From Pseudomonadota bacterium (GTDB lineage: Bacteria > Desulfobacterota > Desulfovibrionia > Desulfovibrionales > Desulfovibrionaceae), in the NCBI GenBank assembly GCA_018816865.1, contig JAHIUW010000020.1, positions 1 to 45,570 of the forward strand: a stretch of DNA of 45,570 bases, given 5' to 3'. This document shows, piece by piece, positions 6,280-27,587 of this stretch (its first letter is position 1; each line of letters starts with the position of its first letter). The notes beneath the pieces were generated by a model, which was given only the letters and a program-made list of their open reading frames with translations, had not been told where the DNA came from and ran no database searches. A program made the position numbers and the translations under genes.

Positions 6280-6681
6280 ATGGCCTGCGCTGACACGCCC
6301 GTGAAGATTCAGGAACTTGAGGAACGCTTTGGCCGGCGCATCGAGCTGACCACCCTGGCCAGGTATCTGGGCGTTGCGCCCAACACCGTGCGCAAGTATG
6401 CTTCCAGGCTCGGGGGCATCGAGGTCACACCCGGCACCTGGCGGTTCTTTGACAAACGAGTGGAGCGATTCATCCATGGCAAGTATCTGCAAGAAACGCG
6501 GGGTTATGCGCGTGCGGGCGGCGGTCATGGTCCAGGGCAGGACCCGCAAGAAATGGTTCCCGGACGATTCCAGAACGTCCATGCGGGAGGCCATCCTCTG
6601 GGAGGAGCAGGCCCGAAAGGAGCTGCAGGAGATGATCCGGACCGATCAGCCGGCGACAACCGCCACGGGCTGCTCGGTTAA
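6280..6681 (+). CDS. HTH excisionase-like protein
   Basis: A 133-residue frame behind a strong GGAGG ribosome site. Residues about 19-45 (ELTTLARYLGVAPNTVRKYA) form a helix-turn-helix of the MerR/excisionase type, followed by GTWRFFDKRVERFIHGKYL, the wing expected in Xis and AlpA proteins. The last 68 codons overlap the integrase gene in another frame and read as low-complexity Gly/Pro, so the working protein may be only the first 70 or so residues. Its position directly before int fits a directionality factor for excision. Confidence 0.6.
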   Translation: MACADTPVKIQELEERFGRRIELTTLARYLGVAPNTVRKYASRLGGIEVTPGTWRFFDKRVERFIHGKYLQETRGYARAGGGHGPGQDPQEMVPGRFQNVHAGGHPLGGAGPKGAAGDDPDRSAGDNRHGLLG

Positions 6682-7693
6682 GATCCTCGACTGGCTCAAC
6701 GGACTCATGGACCGGTACGCGCGCACGTATGCAACCAAGACATACAAGGAAAAGCAGTCCTGCTTCAGGCGGTTTGTGGCCGCTGTGGGCCCCGAGGTCC
6801 CGGTGTTGGAGCTGATCACACCGGACCCTTTGGGCCTGCCGCTGCCCAGCCGGATCCTGCTGGACTACTTTGATGGGCGAGAGGATGCGGGCTCGGGCTA
6901 TGCCACCAACAAGGACCGCAAGAACCTGCGCAAGGCCTGGGAAGACGGGCCGCGGCTGGTTCCCAGGTTCCCGCGCATGGCCTTCAACCCCTTCGACGGC
7001 ATCGAGCGACGACGCGAGACCAGGCACAGGCGCTATGTGCCTGCGGCCAAGGACTTCTGGAAGGCGTTCGACGCGGCCGATGGCCAGGACCGCGTCCTGC
7101 TGCTGACCTTCCTGCACTTGGCGGCCAGGCGCGGCGAGGTCTTCTCCAACGGCGAGGACAAGCCCGGGCTTACCTGGGACGACGTGGACTTCGCCAACCG
7201 GGAGATCACCCTCTGGACGCGAAAACGCGTGGGGGGAGACCTGGAGGCCGACACCCTGCCCATGACCGACGAGCTGCGCCGAACGCTGCTCTGGTGGTGG
7301 GAGAACAGGCCGGCCAGGCGGGAGACGGTGTTCTTCTGCGTGACCATGCGCGACGATGGGCAAAAGCACGAGCGCTGGGGGCTGCCGTTCAGATCCAGGC
7401 AGAGGTTCCTGGGCAAGCTGTGCGAGCGGGTGGGCGTGAAGCCCTTCAGCTATCACGCGATCCGGCACTTCACGGCTAGGCACCTGCACGAGCAGGGCTA
7501 TCCCATTGGCTTCGTCCAGCGCATCCTGCGGCATCAGAACGAGAAGACAACGCGCGACTACCTGGAGAAGTTGGGCGTCACCACCATCCGCGAGACCGTG
7601 GAGGCGGGGATGCCCAGGGTAAAGGCTGGGGAGCTGCTCAAGTTCCCCGAGATGACAGCAACGAAAAAGGCCTCAGGAAGTGATAATTCCTGA
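6476..7693 (+). CDS. int: Tyrosine integrase of the element
   Basis: A 405-residue tyrosine recombinase. I start at the ATG at 6476 because MASICKKRGVMRVRAAVMVQ is a normal arm-binding domain start, while the longer frame to the left is a shadow of the HTH gene. A core-binding helical domain follows, then the catalytic domain with Arg in HLAARRGEV, Lys in TRKRVGG, His-Arg in SYHAIRHFTARHL, His in RILRHQNEK and the Tyr nucleophile in TRDYLEKLG. It lies 75 bases from the 3' end of tRNA-Glu, its likely attachment site. The stop codon is inside the terminator stem. Confidence 0.9.
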   Translation: MASICKKRGVMRVRAAVMVQGRTRKKWFPDDSRTSMREAILWEEQARKELQEMIRTDQPATTATGCSVKILDWLNGLMDRYARTYATKTYKEKQSCFRRFVAAVGPEVPVLELITPDPLGLPLPSRILLDYFDGREDAGSGYATNKDRKNLRKAWEDGPRLVPRFPRMAFNPFDGIERRRETRHRRYVPAAKDFWKAFDAADGQDRVLLLTFLHLAARRGEVFSNGEDKPGLTWDDVDFANREITLWTRKRVGGDLEADTLPMTDELRRTLLWWWENRPARRETVFFCVTMRDDGQKHERWGLPFRSRQRFLGKLCERVGVKPFSYHAIRHFTARHLHEQGYPIGFVQRILRHQNEKTTRDYLEKLGVTTIRETVEAGMPRVKAGELLKFPEMTATKKASGSDNS

Positions 7694-7701
7694 AGCCTTT
7701 T
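7667..7701 (+). terminator. Rho-independent terminator overlapping the end of int
   Basis: AAGGC-C-TCAGGAA, loop GTGATAA, TTCCTGA-A-GCCTT, then a T run: twelve pairs with one mismatch. The integrase stop TGA (7691-7693) is part of the 3' arm. Confidence 0.75.
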
Positions 7702-7724
7702 GTCCCCGGGATTTGTCCCCGGAA
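7698..7724. repeat. Short direct repeat between int and tRNA-Glu
   Basis: The 11-base word TTTGTCCCCGG occurs twice, 14 bases apart, between the integrase terminator and the tRNA. It could be an arm site for the integrase or excisionase. The GTCCCC core also resembles the tRNA end. Function is inference. Confidence 0.35.
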
Positions 7725-7767
7725 CTATGTGGTAAGGGCAACTGATACGTAAACCCTTTGAATTGCT

Positions 7768-7843
7768 TGGCGTCCCCAAGGGGGTTTGAACCCCTGCTGC
7801 CGACGTGAGAGGCCGGTGTCCTAGGCCACTAGACGATGGGGAC
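7768..7843 (-). tRNA. tRNA-Glu (CTC anticodon)
   Basis: The minus strand reads a complete tRNA: 5' GTCCCCA acceptor, D arm, anticodon stem CCGGC with loop CTCTCAC, T arm AGGGGTTCAAACCCC, 3' TGGGGAC, discriminator G and encoded CCA (7770-7768). The 3' end faces the integrase, as expected for an intact tRNA re-formed by an element integrated at its 3' end. Confidence 0.95.
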
Positions 7844-8280
7844 GCCCTGACGGGCGGGGTTTGCACCACGCCGCGGACCGTCTTTTTGCTGAATCACGCC
7901 CATATTGTCAATACCTTTTTATCATAGGGCGCCGTAATTTTCATCCCCCACCCTCGTCCAAGGGCCACGCAGGCCCCAAAAGAGACCGCACAACGCCCCC
8001 CACCACGCAATCTTTGCTCTTCTGGTTCCCCGCCTGCGTTCCAACACCCGCGTCTCGGCATCCTGTCGTCACCCCGGCATCCATCGCCAGCCGCGCACCC
8101 AACCCCCGTCCTGCCCCACGCCCCGGCCCGCTGATGTCCCCTTTGCCCCCACCCAACGGTCCGAGGGACAGGCGCAGGCCCGGCATCTTCCCCAGCGCCC
8201 GTCTTTTTCAACATGGTTTTCCAAACGCCCAAGAACTGCTACCGTCGCAAGAGACCCTTCCTCAATCCCTGCGAGGACCT
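7844..8280. other. Gap between tRNA-Glu and the hemerythrin protein gene
   Basis: 437 bases with no supported gene. A minus-strand TTGACA (7911-7906) upstream of the tRNA may be its -35 box, but the -10 is poor. The long open plus-strand frame through here is Pro/Arg-rich, with no ribosome site or conserved motif, and I treat it as non-coding. Confidence 0.6.
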
Positions 8281-10896
8281 ATGCCAGCAATCCGCAAGGT
8301 CGAAGTCACCCCCGGCGTCTACTGGGTGGAAATCCGCGACGCCGAGATGTTTATTCTGTGCGGCTGTCCGGCCGACAGCGTGAAGCATCTCATGAAGCGG
8401 GGGCTGATCATCCCCGAAGAAAAAAACGGCGTCCAGACCGAGACCGGCCCCAACGCCATCCTGCTCTCGGACACACTGATCCAGAACGGGTCGTTCTCCA
8501 ACCTTGCGGAATTCCCCGTGCTGCAAATGCTCTACCGCCAAGGCCTGATCCTGCCTGGGCACCCCAACAACACAGGCCAAAAGCCCCTGCTCATGGGCTC
8601 TGAACCTCAGGTCCAGTCGCAGCTGCGCTACATCCACCGCGGCAACTACGGCCTGCTCAGCGAGCGGGAACTGATCCAGGCGGGCCTTTCCCCAGCCAGG
8701 GCGCGGGCCGAGATGCGCTTGAAGCTGCGCTTTGCCTTCGGCCAGATCAAGCGCCCCGAGGAAATCCTGGACACCATGGCCATCGGCGAGGCCTGCGTCC
8801 AGATCAGAGGCGGAGTCGGGCTGTGCCGCCTGGCGCACAACCGCTACGAATTCTCCTATGAGGGCGAGACCGTGCAGGTGGACCTGAACCTGCCCAAGGG
8901 CATGCAATACGCCTCACCCTATCCCCTCTGCTACCAGGACGCGGGCCGCGGCTACTTCGACGTGATCCACTCCGGCGACGGCGACGGCTGGGACGTGAAC
9001 CGGCCCACCATGTCCAGCGTGATCATGTATCAGGGCGAGGTCTATCTGATCGACGCCGGACCCAATATCCAGCACACCCTGTCCGCGCTGGGTATCGGGG
9101 TCAACGAGGTCCGGGGCCTGTTCCACACCCATGCCCACGACGACCATTTCTGCGGCCTGACAGCCCTGATGCAGGCCGACCACCGCATCCTGCACTATGC
9201 CACCCCGCACGTGCGGGCCTCGGTGTCCAAGAAATGGGCCGCCCTGCTGGCCCGGCCCGAAAGCGAATTTGCCGCCTACTTCGAGCTGCGCGACCTGACC
9301 GAGGGCCGTTGGAACAGCGTCCAGGGGCTGGAGGTCAAGCCGGTGTTCTCCCCGCACCCCGTGGAGACCAACATCATGTTCTTCCGCACCCGCACCGATG
9401 GCCGGTATCAGACCTACGCCCACCTGGCGGACATCGCCAGCCGTAGCGTGTTGGACAGGTTCCTGACCGACGACGACAACGCCCCCGGCCTCTCTCAGCG
9501 GCTCTACAACAAGGTCTGGAAGGACTACCTGACCCGCGTGGACGTCAAGAAGCTGGACATCGGCGGCGGGCTGATCCACGGCCAGGCCGCAGACTTCAAC
9601 CAGGACAACTCCGCCAAGATCATCCTCTCGCACACGGCCCGCACCCTGGACGACCACGAGCGCGAAATCGGCTCGGGGGCCACCTTCGGCATGATGGACC
9701 GGCTCATCGAAGGCACCCAGGACTTTCTGCGCTCCCTGGCCTACCGCCACCTGCGACGCATCCTGCCCGTGGCCAGGGATCCTCAGCTGCGCATGCTCAT
9801 GAACGGCGAGATGGTCACCCTGAACCCGGAGACAATCCTCCTGCGCCGGGGGCAGCCCAACAAGGACGTCTACCTGATGGTCACGGGCGTTGTGGAACGC
9901 ATCGACAGCAAACAGGGCCTGGTCAACGAATGCTGCGCCGGGGCGCTGCTGGGCGAACTGTCCGGCCTGGCGGGTCAGCCCTGCGCGGCCACCTATCGCG
10001 CCCTGACCCATGTCCGGGCCCTGCGCCTGCCCGCCACCCTGCTCAAACGGGTCATCGAGGACAACAATCTGGGCGCCTATTTCGAGACCCTGCGCGTCTG
10101 GCGCGACTTCCTGCGCCAGACGTGGCTGCTGGGCGGGTCCACGTCTTCGGCGGTACAGGACAAGGTGGCAGGCAGCATGATGACCCTGACATTCAAACCC
10201 GGCCAGACCATCGGCCACGACAAGATCCCGGCCATCTATCTGATCCACGAGGGTCAAGCCGAGGTACACTACAAAAAGCGGATGGTTGAGGCCATCGGCC
10301 CCGGGGATTTCATCGGCGAGGGCTTCGTGCTCTTCGACACGCCGTGCATCACCACGGGGGTGGCGCTGACCGAACTCACGGCGCTGCACATCCACGCCGG
10401 TCTGCTGCGCGAGGTGCCCATCGTCCGCTGGAAACTGTTCGAGACCTTCCGGCGGCGCATGGAGGCCGTTGTGGAGTCCACAAAAACCGGGCAGAGCATC
10501 TTCACCTGGCGCGAGGAATACAGCACCGGCGTTCCCAGGCAGGACAGGGACCACCAGCAGCTGCTGGCCAAGGCCGACGAGGTCCATAGGCGGATCACCA
10601 CCCAGCAAGACAAACGGGACGTGGCCGAGGCCCTGGAAGAACTGATCCGCTACACCGCCGCCCACTTCGGCCGCGAACTGGGCTGGTACGAAGAGGAAGC
10701 GTTCCCGGAGCTGGAGCACCATCGCCTGCTGCACCGCCAACTACTGGAGGAAATCCGCACCAAGGCCATCCGGATCAAGGCGGGCATCCCCAACCCGGAT
10801 GTGGAGTTCGTGACCTTCTTCAAGAACTGGCTCATCGACCACATCATGACCGAGGACCGCAAGTTCGGACGGATGATGGAGTTCAAGCAGGGCTAG
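8281..10896 (+). CDS. MBL-fold/dual cNMP-binding/hemerythrin sensor protein
   Basis: An 871-residue multidomain protein. Residues about 1-200 are of unknown fold. A metallo-beta-lactamase fold follows with VYLIDAGPN and the metal motif HTHAHDDH (282-289), and later His residues (FSPHPVE, IILSHTA) that could complete the site. Residues about 500-595 and 630-730 are two cyclic-nucleotide-binding beta rolls (GELSGLAG; IGEGFVLFD). The C-terminal 130 residues are a bacteriohemerythrin (STGVPRQDRDHQQL, AAHFGRELGWYEEE, LEHHRLLH, WLIDHIMTEDRKF), which binds oxygen at a di-iron site. The start at 8281 follows a GAGGA site. An oxygen-responsive MBL enzyme, perhaps an oxygen reductase or hydrolase controlled by cNMP, is inferred. 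Confidence 0.85.
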   Translation: MPAIRKVEVTPGVYWVEIRDAEMFILCGCPADSVKHLMKRGLIIPEEKNGVQTETGPNAILLSDTLIQNGSFSNLAEFPVLQMLYRQGLILPGHPNNTGQKPLLMGSEPQVQSQLRYIHRGNYGLLSERELIQAGLSPARARAEMRLKLRFAFGQIKRPEEILDTMAIGEACVQIRGGVGLCRLAHNRYEFSYEGETVQVDLNLPKGMQYASPYPLCYQDAGRGYFDVIHSGDGDGWDVNRPTMSSVIMYQGEVYLIDAGPNIQHTLSALGIGVNEVRGLFHTHAHDDHFCGLTALMQADHRILHYATPHVRASVSKKWAALLARPESEFAAYFELRDLTEGRWNSVQGLEVKPVFSPHPVETNIMFFRTRTDGRYQTYAHLADIASRSVLDRFLTDDDNAPGLSQRLYNKVWKDYLTRVDVKKLDIGGGLIHGQAADFNQDNSAKIILSHTARTLDDHEREIGSGATFGMMDRLIEGTQDFLRSLAYRHLRRILPVARDPQLRMLMNGEMVTLNPETILLRRGQPNKDVYLMVTGVVERIDSKQGLVNECCAGALLGELSGLAGQPCAATYRALTHVRALRLPATLLKRVIEDNNLGAYFETLRVWRDFLRQTWLLGGSTSSAVQDKVAGSMMTLTFKPGQTIGHDKIPAIYLIHEGQAEVHYKKRMVEAIGPGDFIGEGFVLFDTPCITTGVALTELTALHIHAGLLREVPIVRWKLFETFRRRMEAVVESTKTGQSIFTWREEYSTGVPRQDRDHQQLLAKADEVHRRITTQQDKRDVAEALEELIRYTAAHFGRELGWYEEEAFPELEHHRLLHRQLLEEIRTKAIRIKAGIPNPDVEFVTFFKNWLIDHIMTEDRKFGRMMEFKQG

Positions 10897-26773: not shown

Positions 26774-26816
26774 TTGACCTCTTTTTAGGAATCAGTTCTA
26801 TTAATAGAGAACTGAT
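26774..26816 (+). promoter_or_regulatory. Peroxiredoxin promoter with palindrome
   Basis: A TTGACC -35 box (26774-26779) is followed 18-19 bases later by an AT-rich -10 region (CTATTA/TATTAA). A perfect 9-base inverted repeat, ATCAGTTCT (26791-26799) and AGAACTGAT (26808-26816), 8-base spacer, covers the -10. A repressor bound here would block the promoter. A peroxide-responsive regulator is a natural guess but the motif is not a textbook PerR or Fur box. Confidence 0.6.
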
Positions 26817-26852
26817 AAATCCATAGCCTTGCGCTATGTGAAGGAGGTCTCC

Positions 26853-27587
26853 ATGCCTGCGAAGAAGGAAAAAGAGATTGCCGTGGGTTGTGCACGGCCC
26901 ACGGGCGGCCCGGTGGGCGAAGCCCCCAGCGAGGAAGCGGCTGCCGCCGCGGCCCCTGCCGCCAGCCAGCCGTCCATGACCATGCGCCTGGGGCACAAGG
27001 CCCCGGATTTTGCAGCCCCGGCCTATCACAAGGGCCAGTTCACCAGCGTCAAACTGTCCGACTTCCTCGGAAAATGGGTGGTGCTGTGCTTCTATCCCGG
27101 TGACTTCACCTTTGTCTGAGCCACCGAAGTCTCGGCGGTCGCCGAGAAGTATGCCGATTTCCAGAAGCTGGGCGTGGAAGTGCTCTCCGTGAGTGTGGAC
27201 TCGATGTTCGTGCACAAGATGTGGGACGACCACGAGCTGTCCAAGATGGTCAAGGGTGGCATTCCCTTCCACATGGTCTCCGACGCCGGGGGCAAGGTGG
27301 GTTCGGTCTACGGCTGCTATAACCCCGAGGCGGGTGTGGAGAACCGGGGCCGCTATCTGATCGATCCCGACGGCGTGGTCCAGGGCTACGAGGTCCTGAC
27401 CCCGCCCGTGGGCCGCAACGTCAGCGAAACCTTCCGCCAGATCCAGGCCTTCCAGCTGGTGCGCAAGTCCAAGGGCAAGGAGGCCACCCCCTCGGGCTGG
27501 TCACCTGGCAAACAGACCCTGAAGCCCGGACCGGACCTGGTGGGCAACGTCTGGAAGGTCTGGAAGACCAAGCAGGCCTTTGAATAG
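26853..27587 (+). CDS. Selenocysteine-containing peroxiredoxin (UGA at 27117-27119)
   Basis: A 244-residue AhpC/Prx1-type peroxiredoxin only if the in-frame TGA at 27117 is read as selenocysteine (residue 89). The text before it ([13 protein letters not shown]) and after it ([11 protein letters not shown]) is the normal active-site region, where TFVCPTE becomes TFV-Sec-ATE. The frame continues 156 codons with all Prx features ([30 protein letters not shown]). The C-terminal motif that normally holds the resolving cysteine reads ATPSGWSPG, without Cys. The remaining cysteines are at 13, 79 and 155. GGAGGT precedes the ATG. A 35-residue Ala-rich N-terminal extension is unusual. It would reduce peroxides in the cytoplasm of an anaerobe. 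Confidence 0.92.
27130..27147 (+). promoter_or_regulatory. SECIS-like hairpin after the UGA
   Basis: TCTCGGC, loop GGTC, GCCGAGA: a perfect 7-pair stem whose four-base loop begins 17 bases after the UGA. Bacterial SECIS elements that bind SelB have a short stem just after the UGA with a GG/GU-type apical loop, as here. It is within the coding sequence. Confidence 0.75.

Follow-up and report, generated by a model that had tools for sequence, protein, structure and literature searches.

A peroxiredoxin gene in the window (the whole stretch of 45,570 nucleotides that was analysed) has a TGA codon at the place of its catalytic residue, and its product lacks the C-terminal resolving Cys of typical 2-Cys peroxiredoxins. 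The locus raises two questions: whether the TGA is read as selenocysteine (Sec), and which thiol would then resolve the oxidized active site.

The prxU reading frame and its in-frame TGA

The gene and the elements needed to read it are as follows.

26853–27587, + strand: prxU gene, 244 residues with one Sec codon read through (translation; NCBIfam and Pfam matches)
26840–26847, + strand: ribosome-binding site GAAGGAGG, 5 bases upstream of the ATG at 26853 (sequence, by eye)
27117–27119, + strand: TGA, codon 89 (Sec89), at the peroxidatic position; the single TGA in the frame

An earlier note on this DNA placed an in-frame TGA at 27117, at the peroxidatic site. This is borne out by a single 244-residue frame from 26853 to 27587, in which Sec89 is found in the context DFTFV-U-ATE, an AhpC-type peroxiredoxin site. 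The 156 codons that were counted past the TGA fit when the stop is included; the residues after U number 155 (90–244). The C-terminal motif ATPSGWSPG and the Ala after the active residue are both present as described. Ala in place of Pro is, however, the commoner state, since the residue after Sec is Ala in 192, Pro in 81 and Ser in 1 of 274 Sec forms.

Standard gene calling was expected to split the gene, and the mechanical list of open reading frames does give two pieces, 26829–27119 and 27174–27587. This split is the only point in favour of the reading that Sec is not made and that the TGA reflects a genuine stop, an error of sequencing or a pseudogene. The same codon is TGA in L010, a relative from the same genus with 92% identity (one same-genus genome was searched). 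A comparison of the window and L010 shows 7 synonymous and 3 non-synonymous codon differences before the TGA (codons 44–88), and 38 synonymous and 12 non-synonymous differences downstream of it, where third positions hold 44 of the 58 base differences. Change past the TGA is mostly synonymous, which argues against a stop, an error or a pseudogene. Further evidence against it is that codon 89 is TGA in 274 of 284 distinct family proteins, window included (TGC or TGT in the other 10), and that a SECIS element and sel genes are present. This reading is given hardly any chance.

Sequences compared

The loci were taken from the genome itself and a same-genus search, from class-search rows above the cut-off except the fragment G071, from new rows of a phylum search (five of which score under the cut-off), and from the best 80 among the 219 rows of a wider search. 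A total of 323 loci were scanned (L009–L038 and L058–L350), two of them without a record (L152 and L277); L039–L057 were excluded because they are not PrxU, except L039, which is the window again. The 322 records represent 297 distinct ones, and 284 after 13 ordinary Cys-type AhpC sequences (L026–L038) are dropped. Among the 284, the four sequences L273–L276 score under the family cut-off, and L025 contains a stretch of unknown bases. Alignment A1 consists of the window and 75 relatives, from 79 Cys-bearing sequences among 110 cluster representatives; it omits L120, L291, L333 and L346, three of them for a choice of ATG that gives a shortened protein.

Selenocysteine machinery and the SECIS element

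The genome of the window is 3.64 Mb and 99.97% complete. The earlier note had made its Sec reading dependent on sel genes in the same genome, and these are found: selA (606.3 bits), selB (391.9 bits) and selD (345.1 bits), all above cut-off, together with a tRNA-Sec (76.3 bits, anticodon TCA). The selD gene (L054, G000:C21:41386–42303) also contains an in-frame TGA and probably encodes a selenoprotein.

27130–27147, + strand: SECIS hairpin, 18 nt, with a 7-bp stem and loop GGUC (fold and comparative pairing)

There are 17 nt between the UGA and the start of the loop, and both spacing and loop resemble those of the E. coli fdhF SECIS. The SECIS is accepted on the basis of the comparative pairing test; the single-sequence fold energy of the 53-nt stretch after the TGA is ordinary (z -0.14) and uninformative. 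Over the 274 distinct Sec members, window included, 95% of the cells at the seven stem positions are paired; for the 104 Sec rows that are cluster representatives the figure is 93%. Covariation in these representatives is found in the third stem pair (GC/AT/CG/TA), the fifth (TA/GC/AT) and the sixth (TA/GC/CG/AT). Of the 274 Sec members, 136 have the loop GGTC and 128 have AGTT. In controls the same stem positions are paired to 57% in the 10 Cys-type family members and to 53% in the 13 ordinary Cys AhpC genes, and the listed loop letters of the control Cys genes are neither GGTC nor AGTT. Other registers in the Sec set reach 83% at best, which represents the same helix opened by one pair; the next reaches 61%. 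Taken together, the sequence data make incorporation of Sec at residue 89 of the window PrxU almost certain.

Family, fold and distribution

Over residues 11–240 the protein scores 407.9 bits (cut-off 270) with NCBIfam NF040737.1 (peroxi_PrxU). The alignment covers positions 2–232 of the 233 in the profile, which spans the N-terminal extension. By this match it is a member of the PrxU family, sharing the peroxidatic Sec in TxxU and showing no difference in the family match, and the Sec peroxiredoxin part is already known. Pfam shows AhpC-TSA and a weak C-terminal match to 1-cysPrx_C. An AhpC/Prx1-type fold is predicted: the AlphaFold monomer has a mean pLDDT of 88.7, and Foldseek finds plant PrxA, human Prx2 and Salmonella AhpC at E values of 1e-21 to 3e-20. 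C51A structures of Prx4 (3tjf) are also among the fold matches.

PrxU was reportedly first described by Sohling in 2001, from Eubacterium acidaminophilum. Sec peroxiredoxins had been described by 2001 (cited in PMC13188914, PMC9312934), and these two reviews list them under the motif TxxU; the review passages concerned do not discuss their resolving residue. They are also counted in older surveys (PMC1794560, PMC1088965), and a split Sec peroxiredoxin gene with a SECIS is reported for Desulfococcus multivorans (PMC5109826).

Matches to PrxU above the cut-off are present in 68 of the 348 class genomes and in 129 of 395 genomes drawn from the phylum. Among the matches listed, metagenome bins labelled with other phyla (KSB1, Acidobacteria, Nitrospira, Aminicenantes and Spirochaetota) have it too, and the assignment is therefore unsure. 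No second place matching the window protein (P0001) at E <= 0.001 was found in its own genome, so this PrxU looks like the sole close AhpC-type peroxiredoxin there. The genome has five further matches to the AhpC-TSA domain model, too distant for the protein search.

The missing C-terminal Cys and candidate partner thiols

27486–27500, + strand: TPSGW, residues 212–216, in the place of the resolving Cys (CPAGW) of typical 2-Cys enzymes
27087–27089, + strand: Cys79 codon, a conserved Cys on core strand E75–80 (alignment, model)

The claim that a normal resolving Cys is lacking is correct. Residue 212 is Thr, and the CPxxW that holds the resolving Cys of typical 2-Cys enzymes is not present. Column 212 is Thr in 219 of 283 family proteins and Cys in 35 of 284; at that place ACPAKW or VCPAGW is found in Cys-type paralogues from relatives. 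The window protein shares the fold and the PxxxTxxC/U active-site motif with the typical 2-Cys peroxiredoxins (AhpC, Prx1–Prx4), but it has Sec for Cys, no C-terminal resolving Cys and, instead, a conserved Cys in an N-terminal extension. The absence of a C-terminal resolving Cys is a likeness to the 1-Cys peroxiredoxins of the Prx6 type. These have no second conserved Cys, whereas the window protein has the further conserved thiols Cys13 and Cys79, and its next-best family matches after PrxU are AhpC-like.

Two internal partners had been proposed in the earlier note. Cys155 is rejected, as fewer than 5 of the 284 family proteins have a Cys there. Cys79 fares somewhat better in that it is conserved in 249 of the 284, but it lies on a core strand and is Tyr in the extension-bearing L339. 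Ten residues before Sec89, it could act as the resolving thiol through an intramolecular bond, and it is present in 238 of the 239 members counted as extension-bearing. Strand E75–80 is part of the confidently modelled core, which argues against such a bond, as does L339, where Cys79 is lost and Cys13 is kept. Cys79 is also found in 11 of 21 short forms that keep the C-terminal Cys, and thus does not simply replace that Cys. A resolving role for Cys79 is considered improbable.

The N-terminal extension and Cys13

26886–26921, + strand: conserved N-terminal block, residues 12–23, including GCARPTGG (column conservation)
26889–26891, + strand: Cys13 codon, the proposed relocated resolving cysteine (240 of the 244 rows that are not gapped in this column have Cys)

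The proposals of the earlier note missed Cys13, the residue with this degree of conservation. The four rows with another residue in the column (L249, L254, L262 and L268) appear to be short forms for which the start codon was placed too far upstream. Conservation in the block is 80% at G12, 98% at C13, 74% at R15, 96% at P16 (233 of 243) and 78% at G19. The linker (residues 24–37) is variable, with the commonest residue at 16–38%. In alignment A1 Cys13 is invariant because the rows were chosen for having it. A count that is independent of the Cys gives 242 proteins with an N-terminal region of at least 30 residues; a Cys is inside this region in 241, in the form C..P/A in 236. Of the six long-N-terminus proteins that lack C..P/A, L318 and L338 have a variant of the motif, and L254, L264, L273 and L275 have no motif. 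A second conserved Cys, as in a 2-Cys type with a relocated resolving Cys, is thus present in the form of Cys13. In the AlphaFold monomer the Cys13 block is not docked and pLDDT is below 50 at residues 11–16; a contact with Sec89 is beyond what a monomer can decide.

In L238 the active-site residue is Cys; the N-terminal Cys is retained and a C-terminal one is absent. On the tree L238 adjoins a Sec row (support 98), and it keeps 4 of the 7 hairpin pairs but not the loop. Its active-site codon is TGC, and the same genome (G619) also has a form with one TGA, L285.

The motif around Cys13 includes VGC, and a lipobox reading was rejected for the window protein only, as there is no hydrophobic stretch before the Cys. 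Among the long-N-terminus proteins, L073, L105, L109, L291, L295 and L333 have no charged residue before the first Cys. A hydrophobicity screen (13/14 residues) of the long-N-terminus proteins found none, but it is crude and missed stretches in L021, L120 and L333. By eye, the upstream in-frame sequence of these three begins with a hydrophobic stretch like a signal peptide, and the N-terminal Cys is kept; each of the three is in a genome with a second PrxU (G016, G282 and G665). They are possibly exported Sec peroxiredoxins.

Distribution of N-terminal and C-terminal Cys

The N-terminal extension and a Cys near the C-terminus tend to replace one another in the family. When proteins are grouped by N-terminal length, a Cys in segment 196–216 is present in 19 of 241 long-N-terminus proteins and in 36 of 41 short ones. 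When the extension is defined by the Cys column, the counts are 16 of 238 with the extension and 39 of 44 without it; with one row per 84% cluster, they are 8 of 81 extension-bearing and 24 of 27 short. L025 and the truncated L271b1 are left out of these counts, and L264, whose upstream Cys is outside the motif, is counted as short in the Cys-column counts and in the tree test. Fisher values of 2e-29 (all rows) and 3.6e-14 (cluster representatives) ignore relatedness and are not probabilities; with few independent evolutionary events they overstate the trade-off.

Segments 44–78 and 90–130 show no such Cys difference between the groups. Two segments are borderline, 80–88 (0 of 238 extension-bearing vs 2 of 44 short) and 131–195 (6 of 238 vs 4 of 44). 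Segment 217–244 has a smaller difference in the same direction (9 of 238 vs 12 of 44), so the signal is not confined to 196–216.

The Cys of the short forms is at position 212 in 21, at 213 or 214 in 4, at 200 in 11 and near 205 in 3. The forms with Cys200 and no Cys212 are L244, L246, L249, L251, L253, L254, L258, L259, L262, L263 and L266, eleven in all; their residue 79 is Tyr in nine and Phe in two. Cys212 is kept besides the extension in 14 Sec proteins.

L239 and L240 have no extension, show an in-frame stop and no motif upstream, and read ACPAGW at the C-terminal place. Their nearest neighbours after each other are extension-bearing rows, on branches that are not strongly supported, and the two represent an apparent natural swap of the N-terminal for the C-terminal Cys, as judged from these sequences. 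When the tree is built from sequence outside the extension, a number of short forms with Cys212 are early branches, and the extension arises inside the family. In this tree 45 of the 111 inner branches are weak and the outgroup is not on one side of a branch. The extension changes five times, which gives 2 independent pairs if only well-supported branches count and 5 if every branch does. On well-supported branches the pairs average 1.4 in the expected way, 0.0 in the opposite way and 0.5 with no difference, which is not enough for significance.

Five short proteins (L122, L247, L257, L261 and L264) have no C-terminal-segment Cys; a sixth, L271b1, is truncated there. The five show that a one-Sec route is possible in the PrxU family. 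In a true one-Sec enzyme an outside thiol (thioredoxin, a low-molecular thiol or sulfide) would reduce the Sec89 selenenic acid directly, and the Cys13 block would be only a docking peptide. These five relatives, which have neither the extension nor the Cys, point in this direction, and so does the weak C-terminal Pfam match, which is to a 1-Cys domain. Such a route leaves unexplained why the Cys is more conserved than the surrounding residues of the extension and why the short forms have a C-terminal Cys. It is judged unlikely for the window protein, with a chance that is still appreciable.

Human Prx4 has the typical 2-Cys fold and an N-terminal extension with Cys51, which is regarded as structural, between subunits or dimers. 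Cys13 could likewise form a structural disulfide between subunits or dimers, outside the catalytic cycle. The N-terminal extension common to both proteins and the presence of C51A structures among the fold matches are in accord with this. Prx4, however, retains its C-terminal resolving Cys, which the window protein lacks, and the trade-off would not be expected from a structural bond. A purely structural Cys13 is given only a small chance.

Proposed mechanism

The window PrxU is proposed to be a Sec-Cys peroxidase with its resolving thiol relocated to a flexible N-terminal arm, and to be reset by a thioredoxin-like protein. We hold this with moderate confidence, and the limit is set by the role of Cys13 and not by the incorporation of Sec. 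Sec decoding, the predicted fold, the absence of the classic Cys, the conservation of Cys13 and the trade-off are read from the sequences, and from these we infer every chemical step.

In the first step SelB and tRNA-Sec would insert Sec at UGA89, using the hairpin that immediately follows the codon, a step for which the sequence evidence is strong. The Sec89 selenolate, in the PxxxTxxU pocket, would then reduce peroxide and become a selenenic acid, as may be expected from the family. In the third step Cys13 of the same or the neighbouring subunit would swing into the active site and form a selenenylsulfide with Sec89. The arm that could allow this consists of the conserved 12-residue block and a variable linker of roughly 20 residues to the domain, and Cys13 would do the job of the C-terminal Cys in typical 2-Cys peroxiredoxins. 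Finally, the Sec89–Cys13 bond would be reduced by a thioredoxin-like protein; the genome has seven matches above cut-off to the thioredoxin model, of which L351 is the best.

A wider reading is that this single selenoprotein peroxidase family has repeatedly relocated its resolving thiol. The places used would be the flexible N-terminal arm, the classic C-terminal position, positions one or two residues beyond it, and two positions on or after the helix before it, near residues 200 and 205. This is a tentative proposal that we would not yet favour. If true, AhpC-type peroxiredoxins would have a separate class of resolving-Cys location in the N-terminal arm, and it may be the Sec at the active site that makes such moves tolerable.

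A rare N-terminal location of the resolving Cys is mentioned in reviews for other peroxiredoxins. No description of one in PrxU was found among the titles and abstract starts listed from the open-licence literature; this scope takes in neither the 2001 paper on PrxU nor two reviews of peroxiredoxins, so the evidence for novelty is weak. Cys13 provides a concrete handle on the reduction route of PrxU, a family present in about a third of the phylum genomes drawn. If its role is confirmed, the resolving half of a peroxiredoxin can relocate to the opposite end of the chain. This would affect the classification of peroxiredoxins by Cys position, under which the window protein would otherwise be filed as 1-Cys.

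Upstream region and other parts of the window

26786–26807, + strand: candidate PerR-like operator TAGGAATCAGTTCTATTAATAG, 22 bp, upstream of prxU (by eye)

The 22-bp stretch is identical in L010. PerR sites are listed for Desulfovibrio, e.g., AATAGGAATCGTTCCTGTT (PMC545781, Table 7), and the candidate operator resembles these by eye, with one extra base. Tentatively, prxU may be under peroxide control through this PerR-like element. A perfect 8-bp inverted repeat, TCAGTTCT/AGAACTGA (positions 26792–26815), overlaps the candidate operator and is not fully kept in L010.

Elsewhere in the window, positions 7861–10896 represent a frame of 1011 residues that by eye has metallo-beta-lactamase-like and cyclic-nucleotide-binding-like parts and a C-terminal hemerythrin-like part. 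An integrase-like frame (6374–7693, by eye) adjoins a tRNA-Glu at 7768–7843. The region 6374–7843 may be the border of an integrated element, at the window's low-coordinate end.
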